NCBI GenBank assembly: GCA_944326485.1
Contig: CALVED010000001.1
Location: 62,001 to 126,000 of the forward strand
Reading direction: 5' to 3'
Length of the DNA stretch: 64,000 nt
Source of the DNA: Candidatus Gastranaerophilales bacterium
GTDB lineage: Bacteria > Cyanobacteriota > Vampirovibrionia > Gastranaerophilales > Gastranaerophilaceae
The stretch's first letter is position 1; each line of letters starts with the position of its first letter. The notes under the pieces were generated by a model, which worked only from the letters and a program-made list of their open reading frames with translations, made no database searches and was not told the origin of the DNA. This document shows positions 48,143 to 50,055 of this stretch, piece after piece. The position numbers were made by a program, and so were the translations under genes.

Positions 48143-49363
48143 TTAAAAAGGTCTAAATCGCATTTGACGCTTATGCTCATTTTGTACGGTTTTTATTCCT
48201 GATTGACCTAAAGCAATTATTCCATTTCCAAATTTATTTTCTAATTCATCTATTGTCCGAGAAAGTTTATTTTCTTTTATATTTAAATTATCCTGAAAAA
48301 ATGACAATTGATTTTTCTCATTTTTTTCTAAGGAATAAGTTAAAATTCCTGATGAACGATATATTATATTTTGATTAAATAATAAATTAAATAATTTTCT
48401 TATATATTTCTTTAAAACAATTTCAGAATTTGTAGCTTTATCAAGTTTTTCTTCTTGCACAAATACTTTAAAATCTTTTGTTCTAAGCATTACTGAAATA
48501 ATAGAAGTAACCTGATTTTTTTCCCGCAATTTCTTACACACATTATGAAGATGAAGTTCAAGTTCTGTCATAATATAATCTTTATTACTTGAAAAATTAG
48601 GAAAAGCTCTTGTTCGTTGAATAGATTTAGGATATTCTTCTTTACTAATTAAAGGGATAATAGCTTGTCCCTGTAATTCATATTTTAATTCCAATCCTTT
48701 TTTTCCTAATTCATACTTAAAAAATTCATCATCTTTATTTAAAATTTCATGCGCATGAAAAATCCCAAAACTTCTCAAAGTTCTGGCTATGTTTTTACCC
48801 ACACCCCAAATATCTTCTAAATCTAACTTATATAACTCTTTATGAATATTCTCATTATTAATAATATAAACACCACAAGAGTTTTTCGCTTTATGACTTG
48901 CTATTTTAGCTAAAGTTTTTGAAGAACTAAGTCCTATTGATACTGAAATACCAATTTCTTTTAAAATAGTTTCTCTAATATGAGTAATTAAGTTAATATA
49001 AGAAATCCTATTATATTTATCTAAATTTGTTAAATCAATAAATGCTTCATCTATAGAATAAATATCAACTATATCAGAATATTTTGACAGTAAATTCATC
49101 ATTCTTATTGAAATATCATGATATAAGGAGAAATCAGCACTTATATAAACAATATTATAATTACCAAATTCTTTTTTTGCCATAAAATATGGCATTCCCA
49201 TTCTAACGCCAATTTGTTTTGCTTCCTTTGAACGAGCTATAATACATCCGTCATTATTACTTAAAACACATACGGGTTTATTTTTTAATGAAGGATTCAT
49301 TAAAATTTCACAACTTGCAAAAAAATTATCACCATCAATTAAAGCAATTTTTTTATTATTCAT
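48143..49363 (-). CDS. umuC: UmuC-type Y-family DNA polymerase
   Basis: Error-prone translesion polymerase of 406 residues. Motifs: DGDNFFASCE (metal Asp), NNDGCIIARS, IYSIDEAFIDLT (catalytic Asp-Glu), IGVSSSKTLAK-like IGLSSSKTLAKIASH, and a helix-hairpin-helix around VGKNIARTLRSFGI. The SINPEAFIDL-type C-terminal domain follows. An AAAGGA site precedes the ATG. It follows the LexA/UmuD-type gene on the same strand with an 81-nt gap that contains a GC-rich hairpin, and is presumably induced by DNA damage. Confidence 0.94.
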   Translation of the reverse strand: MNNKKIALIDGDNFFASCEILMNPSLKNKPVCVLSNNDGCIIARSKEAKQIGVRMGMPYFMAKKEFGNYNIVYISADFSLYHDISIRMMNLLSKYSDIVDIYSIDEAFIDLTNLDKYNRISYINLITHIRETILKEIGISVSIGLSSSKTLAKIASHKAKNSCGVYIINNENIHKELYKLDLEDIWGVGKNIARTLRSFGIFHAHEILNKDDEFFKYELGKKGLELKYELQGQAIIPLISKEEYPKSIQRTRAFPNFSSNKDYIMTELELHLHNVCKKLREKNQVTSIISVMLRTKDFKVFVQEEKLDKATNSEIVLKKYIRKLFNLLFNQNIIYRSSGILTYSLEKNEKNQLSFFQDNLNIKENKLSRTIDELENKFGNGIIALGQSGIKTVQNEHKRQMRFRPF

Positions 49364-49386
49364 ATCATTCCTTTTATGAAAATATG

Positions 49387-49424
49387 CGGGGATACAGGGA
49401 GGAACCTACCCCCGCAATAGAAGA
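49387..49424 (-). other. GC-rich hairpin between regulator and umuC
   Basis: In an otherwise AT-rich gap, TGCGGGG and CCCCGCA (about 49385-49391 and 49416-49422) pair as a 7-bp stem around an 18-25-nt loop that itself holds AGGGAGG and CCTACC. No long T run follows, so it is not a classical terminator. It may be an attenuator, a processing site or a translation control element for umuC. Confidence 0.45.
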
Positions 49425-49444
49425 ATAAATATTTTTAAATAATA

Positions 49445-50020
49445 CTATAATTTTCTTACTATCCCTTGCGCTACTCCAAAGATTATTAATTGTTCTTTTG
49501 GATATAAATTGGGATAATTTGAATTAGCAGGCTCTAACCAAACTTTTGAATTTTTATTTCTGTATGTTTTTAAAGTATAACCGCCATCTATATAAGCAAC
49601 TACTATATCTCCATTTTTAGCGGTATTCGTCTTCTTAATTATTACTTTATCTCCATCGTAAATTCCTAAATCCATCATCGAATCACCTGATACATTAAAA
49701 ATAAATGTTGAAGGTTCATTTATATTAAATGTTTCATCTAATGAAATTCTTCTTTCTATATAATCGTCCGCAACAGAAGCAAAACCTGCCTTTACTGCTG
49801 ATGAAAACAATACCGCTCCAAATAACTCTTTATTTATATAAAACCTATTATTTTTCTCCTGTATTAAGTCTTCTTCTTTTAATTTATTAAAATACTGCCA
49901 AACTGAATTTTTATGTTTAAACCCAAAATCTTTTGCTATAATATCAAAACTTGGCAAAACATCTTTTCCATATAATTCTTTTAACTTCTCAAAGAATATT
50001 TTTTGTTTTTCTGTAAGCAT
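49445..50020 (-). CDS. LexA/UmuD-type self-cleaving repressor (S24 peptidase with N-terminal HTH)
   Basis: 191 residues. The N-terminal part (1-65) is a winged HTH like LexA (LTEKQKIFFEKLKELYG ... FKHKNSVWQYFNKLKEEDLI). The C-terminal part resembles UmuD: the cleavage site A78-G79 in VKAGFASVADDYIERRISLD, catalytic S114 in SGDSMMD and K151 in YTLKTY. It therefore combines a DNA-binding domain with a UmuD-like peptidase. The gene precedes umuC and its promoter carries a palindrome, so it likely represses itself and umuC until DNA damage. No ribosome site precedes the ATG. Confidence 0.9.
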   Translation of the reverse strand: MLTEKQKIFFEKLKELYGKDVLPSFDIIAKDFGFKHKNSVWQYFNKLKEEDLIQEKNNRFYINKELFGAVLFSSAVKAGFASVADDYIERRISLDETFNINEPSTFIFNVSGDSMMDLGIYDGDKVIIKKTNTAKNGDIVVAYIDGGYTLKTYRNKNSKVWLEPANSNYPNLYPKEQLIIFGVAQGIVRKL

Positions 50021-50026
50021 ATTATT

Positions 50027-50055
50027 ATTATAGACAAATGTCTATAATTTGTCAA
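50027..50055 (-). promoter_or_regulatory. consensus promoter with overlapping palindromic operator for the LexA/UmuD-type gene
   Basis: On the minus strand TTGACA (50055-50050) and TATAAT (50032-50027) are spaced by exactly 17 bases. A perfect palindrome, TATAGACA-AA-TGTCTATA in plus orientation (50029-50046), covers the -10 and most of the spacer. A second, overlapping inverted repeat, GACAAAT and ATTTGTC (50033-50039 and 50047-50053), reaches the -35. The predicted start of transcription falls at about the ATG (50020). Confidence 0.85.

Follow-up and report, generated by a model that had tools for sequence, protein, structure and literature searches.

A LexA/UmuD hybrid as a probable one-site SOS switch over umuC in Gastranaerophilales

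In a stretch of 64,000 nucleotides (hereafter the window) from a Candidatus Gastranaerophilales bacterium, a relative of cyanobacteria that lives in the gut, we describe a hybrid of LexA and UmuD that very probably represses its own, probably leaderless, umuD-umuC promoter and so forms a self-contained SOS switch with one site. In the model that we propose, a dimer of the repressor would bind a palindrome lying in the spacer and the -10 element of the promoter, keeping the operon off. Upon DNA damage, RecA filaments would trigger cleavage at Ala78-Gly79 by the Ser114/Lys151 dyad, which would end repression and release the C-terminal part for a UmuD'-like role alongside the UmuC-like polymerase. 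The transcript is predicted to start at the ATG, or within one or two bases of it, and to be translated leaderless, and the single target of the repressor in this genome would be its own promoter. Induction by DNA damage is proposed because the cleavage machinery is intact, umuC is linked to the repressor gene and a box lies ahead of recA in one relative. The features of the locus are the following.

48143..49363, minus strand: UmuC-like Y-family DNA polymerase, 406 aa (IMS 2.6e-41; AAAGGA ribosome site)
49370..49431, minus strand: conserved intergenic hairpin ahead of the polymerase gene (stem rich in GC, UUCCUCCC in the loop, U-run)
49445..50020, minus strand: LexA/UmuD hybrid repressor, 191 aa, with a putative leaderless ATG (ORF, profiles, structure model)
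49472..49801, minus strand: peptidase S24 domain (A78-G79 cleavage pair, S114 and K151 dyad)
49835..50020, minus strand: LexA-type winged helix-turn-helix (HTH), residues 1-62 (AlphaFold2 model, BLASTP to E. coli LexA, residue-box association)
50027..50032, minus strand: -10 element TATAAT, inside the operator and 6 nt from the ATG
50029..50046, no strand: operator core TATAGAC-N4-GTCTATA, the perfect palindrome extending to 50027-50048
50050..50055, minus strand: -35 element TTGACA (TTGAC invariant in 30 same-genus sequences)

Results

The repressor

The 191-aa ORF matches Peptidase_S24 at 2.6e-25, and each of 23 orthologs keeps Ala78-Gly79, Ser114 and Lys151. In the AlphaFold2 model (mean pLDDT 79.9 and pTM 0.46, the arrangement of the domains being unsure), helices at residues 4-17, 25-32 and 37-49 are followed by wing strands; the recognition helix corresponds to residues 37-49, and the specificity positions are 36 and 41. 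A winged HTH joined to an S24 domain with the Ala-Gly pair, the serine and the lysine is the architecture of LexA. UmuD, in turn, has umuC as its operon partner, as this protein does, but carries no DNA-binding domain, whereas here residues 1-62 form one of LexA type.

The profiles place the protein about one bit below the cut-offs of both families, which, together with the winged HTH of the model and the LexA matches in Foldseek, bears out the earlier note in calling it a LexA/UmuD hybrid. The same data lend some weight to the reading that it is the lineage's own LexA, highly diverged and left with a reduced set of targets, and not a local regulator built on UmuD: TIGR00498 (lexA) aligns over the full length with 109.8 bits against a cut-off of 110.95, and Foldseek ranks LexA structures first, some of them in complex with DNA, with CI below. 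The S24 domain, however, is equally close to UmuD (NF007621, 109.1 bits against a cut-off of 110) and exceeds that cut-off in two relatives, G049 and G037 (116.8 and 116.4 bits). By sequence, moreover, the closest solved structure is UmuD, CI reaching only an E value of about 0.06. We regard a diverged LexA as possible but doubtful.

No match to PF01726 (LexA_DNA_bind) was found in the window's genome, of which 3% is missing from the assembly, and no canonical or recognisable LexA repressor was found in it. RecA is present. The genome encodes two S24 proteins only, the hybrid and a CI-like repressor whose HTH is of XRE type (L060, C1:169968-170282).

Targets of the box

Of 75 relatives, 74 have the umuC-like gene downstream of the repressor gene and on the same strand. 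Elsewhere in the window's genome we found no second promoter with the box, the five next-best sites that were read all being inside genes. Allowing up to three mismatches, the genome holds 149 matches, compared with 290 for the reversed control; a regulon based on this box was rejected on these two grounds. The scan of repair genes suggested in the earlier note came out negative in this genome, where neither recA, uvr nor any other repair gene has the box, although a recA box exists in one genome of the sister genus g48. The SOS-like box of that note is thus of the right type, N4-spaced like those of Gram-positive and cyanobacterial LexA, but it serves one promoter in this genome.

These observations bear on the diverged LexA as well. 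A box of the LexA N4 type and the recA box of one sister genome are in its favor, while the shared operon with umuC and the absence of recA, uvr or other repair targets, that is, of the regulon of several SOS genes with a common box that goes with LexA, speak against it. The sister genome concerned is G235 (genus g48), where the box is found in exact form about 150 nt upstream of recA (L264:636-653); no further repair gene outside the operon was seen with it. The recA box would connect the regulator with the response to DNA damage, yet it is a single case.

In five genomes in which umuC is set apart from umuD (G142, G136, G243, G244 and G231), umuC has its own box. Such a second box-bearing promoter before a separated umuC is seen in several genomes of genus g30 (L185, L187, L192 and L265). 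In G243, a variant of the box, TATAGACACATGTCCATA, occurs ~40 nt upstream of a gene for a 203-aa protein (L266, around 1400).

The start of the message

Read on the minus strand (50055-50027), TTGACA and TATAAT are separated by 17 nt, and the perfect promoter reported in the earlier note is confirmed; 0.1 such promoters are expected in the window and two are present. The -10 element ends at 50027, and only the six nucleotides AATAAT separate it from the ATG (50020-50018), a gap into which no Shine-Dalgarno sequence fits, in agreement with the claim that there is no ribosome site. This ATG is the first start after the in-frame stop. The gap measures 6 nt in all the same-genus loci read, one of which has a GTG inside it, and 6-9 nt in most loci of other genera. 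A gap fixed throughout the genus supports the leaderless start put forward in the earlier note, without proving it, and we consider this start well supported by the sequences compared. Leaders of 23-46 nt occur in four genomes of g30 and in G292 and G043, so that leaderless translation would be the usual form but not the sole one.

A start that is not leaderless, either because an upstream promoter is mainly used or because transcription begins 5' of the ATG, with a weak or downstream ribosome site, appears rather unlikely. Several of the 23-46-nt leaders in relatives do carry an SD-like sequence, and the second perfect TTGACA-17-TATAAT of the window (50276-50248, minus strand) lies on the same strand, 221 nt farther upstream. 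This second promoter, however, which falls within the first part of the divergent gene, has not been retained by the sister species or elsewhere, whereas a gap of 6-8 nt persists in most loci and BLASTP against E. coli LexA brings the ATG at 50020 into line with the LexA start. As a genome-wide rule, a leaderless start of this kind is weak, exact TATAAT being found 6 nt before the start in 6 of 348 crude gene calls.

The operator and its conservation

The palindrome fills the promoter spacer and the -10 element. The 8+2+8 repeat described at 50029-50046 is exact; it is in fact longer, 10+2+10 at 50027-50048, and for this reason it covers the whole -10 element. For a window of the same composition, 4.65 palindromes of the 8+2+8 kind are expected and five are observed, and 0.5 of the 10+2+10 kind are expected. 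Taken alone, the palindrome is therefore no more than chance; its significance derives from its conservation. A second inverted repeat, which had been described as reaching the -35 element, is perfect in just 7 of 30 same-genus sequences and is thus incidental.

The protein has a match in 33 of 35 same-genus genomes, and the exact TATAGAC-N4-GTCTATA is present in 31 of the 35, always at the repressor gene. It is single copy in 30 of these, the 31st having two boxes and two copies of the gene; the two genomes with the gene but without the exact box differ at one position. Over 30 distinct upstream sequences of the genus, the conserved block starts at the -35 element and ends at the ATG, with TTGAC, TATAGAC, GTCTATAAT and the final bases before the ATG invariant or nearly so, and the mean information from -35 to -1 is 1.70 bits per position, compared with 0.46 upstream. 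Within the operator, the outer seven bases of each half-site are fixed and the central four are variable, the pattern expected of the operator of a dimer. In the sister species, with 96% protein identity, the promoter block alone is retained and the rest of the intergenic region has decayed. The absence of the palindrome from orthologous promoters had been named beforehand as the outcome contrary to this reading; the palindrome is there, and its presence across relatives supports an operator fused to the promoter.

L048, L049 and L050 contain a degraded duplicate of the promoter together with some 43 codons. In the first two it lies ~2.8 kb upstream of the intact gene, and in L048 the interval holds genes for a lysozyme-like protein and an XRE-type HTH protein. 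In L048 and L049 the arrangement resembles the outcome of an element inserting in the gene and restoring its 5' end.

At the position of the operator, two sister genera have TATGTAC-N4-GTACATA, once per genome in 17 of 18 and at the repressor gene, and other sister genera have TATGAAC-N4-GTTCATA; these boxes correspond to the cyanobacterial and Gram-positive LexA types (PMC3091678). Residues 36 and 41 of the protein follow the type of box in 76 of 76 loci, with no exception: His36 and Trp41 go with the GAC operator (54 loci), Ser36 and Trp41 with AAC (four loci), and Ser36 with Lys, Ala, Val or Arg at 41 with TAC or CAC (18 loci). By BLASTP, the two positions align with Ser39 and Glu44 of E. 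coli LexA, which are DNA contacts (PMC3091678). On a tree of the peptidase domain, built without the HTH, the operator has switched twice independently, and since just two events are independent, too few for a significance test, the association is not statistical proof. Even so, nothing argues more strongly for binding of the palindrome by the protein than this co-change of operator and residues. That the palindrome belongs to another repressor, or is a structural quirk of an A+T-rich promoter with no self-regulation involved, is highly improbable: chance 8+2+8 palindromes are indeed common in the window, but neither alternative explains why each genome, across dozens of species, has one exact site and has it at the repressor gene, or why operator bases change together with the recognition-helix residues of the protein.

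A hairpin before the polymerase gene

Between the two genes, a GC-rich stem of 7 bp closes a UUCCUCCC loop and is followed by a U-run. The hairpin is present in 33 same-genus loci and two more, and our model of it (R1) has one match in the genome, at 67.9 bits, the next best reaching 22.7; this single strong match rules out a general type of terminator. With R1, no hairpin was found in other genera, and Rfam returned nothing at the locus at the gathering threshold and nothing meaningful at a relaxed one. The stem covaries, with 15 double-changed cells and none of 500 shuffles as high, as computed on an alignment that was built from a seed and fitted to the structure, the MAFFT alignment being misaligned. 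Taken by itself, a UCCUUCC or UUCCUCCC motif downstream of the stop has a wider distribution than the hairpin; in a 464-kb sample of the genome, a UUCCUCCC-like motif right after the stop of a long ORF occurs here only, plus one doubtful site. By eye, the loop and the umuC ribosome site do not show consistent strict pairing.

The simplest guess is a partial terminator that holds the polymerase below the repressor. Tentatively, the locus might combine two layers of control new to umuDC, namely a leaderless repressor message whose promoter is the operator, and a genus-specific covarying hairpin whose anti-Shine-Dalgarno-like loop and U-run meter the polymerase as an attenuator or a translational switch.

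Discussion

In the collection of papers searched, none connects Gastranaerophilales to the SOS response. S24 repressors over error-prone polymerases have been described in other bacteria devoid of LexA, HdiR in Streptococcaceae and UmuDAb in Moraxellaceae, and these cases are regarded as convergent (PMC8565304). If our model is correct, the present system would be a further independent case of bacteria without LexA in which a polymerase is placed under a self-cleaving S24 repressor, and would come near the smallest possible form of it, usually one gene, one site and one operon.

In the case of HdiR with umuC (Lactococcus and Streptococcus), a self-cleaving S24 repressor also stands over itself and an error-prone polymerase in a host without LexA, and in S. 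uberis it controls the mutagenic cassette only, as would be the case here (PMC8565304). HdiR, however, is placed among the phage repressors (PMC8565304), whereas the window protein has a LexA-type HTH and a UmuD-like peptidase. UmuDAb of Acinetobacter is likewise a UmuD with an N-terminal DNA-binding part that represses its own and the umuDC promoters in a host without LexA, but it has an unconventional HTH-like region, needs DdrR and acts on several promoters through a 21-bp operator with a GTnAC core (PMC11332147, PMC4807011). Here we find a LexA-type winged HTH, one promoter and an N4-spaced operator, TATAGAC-N4-GTCTATA, that does not match the TTGA/TCAA arms and GTnAC core of the UmuDAb site.

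With LexA of Bacillus and cyanobacteria the protein shares the winged HTH and the S24 domain, and among the three box types that prevail in the family described here, two, GAAC-N4-GTTC and GTAC-N4-GTAC, are those of LexA (PMC3091678). LexA nevertheless controls many genes and this system one site, and the commonest box of the family, TATAGAC-N4-GTCTATA, is different.

Modules of HTH-UmuD and umuC in Proteobacteria, Nitrospina and others (L104, L105, L107 and L146) resemble ours in gene order and in promoter palindromes such as GAGAACATTTGTTCTC, but their leaders are longer, no leaderless geometry is seen, the HTH sequence is different, and identity is about 30-35%. Proteobacterial and Nitrospina HTH-UmuD genes (L104, L105, L146 and L103) have GAAC-N4-GTTC or GTAC-N4-GTAC palindromes near the promoter, with umuC next in most. 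The occurrence of full-length modules in both groups suggests that systems of this kind are probably widespread. Lambda CI made from PRM is also a self-cleaving S24 repressor with a leaderless mRNA; as a phage repressor, it activates its own promoter as well, and its HTH and operators differ from those described here.

The window system works like HdiR or UmuDAb, but it is neither. As judged from its sequences, what would set it apart is a LexA-type winged HTH, a target that is usually single, the leaderless geometry and natural switches of specificity. With GAC, AAC and TAC operators switching along with two recognition-helix residues in one order, the family offers a natural test of how LexA-type specificity changes.
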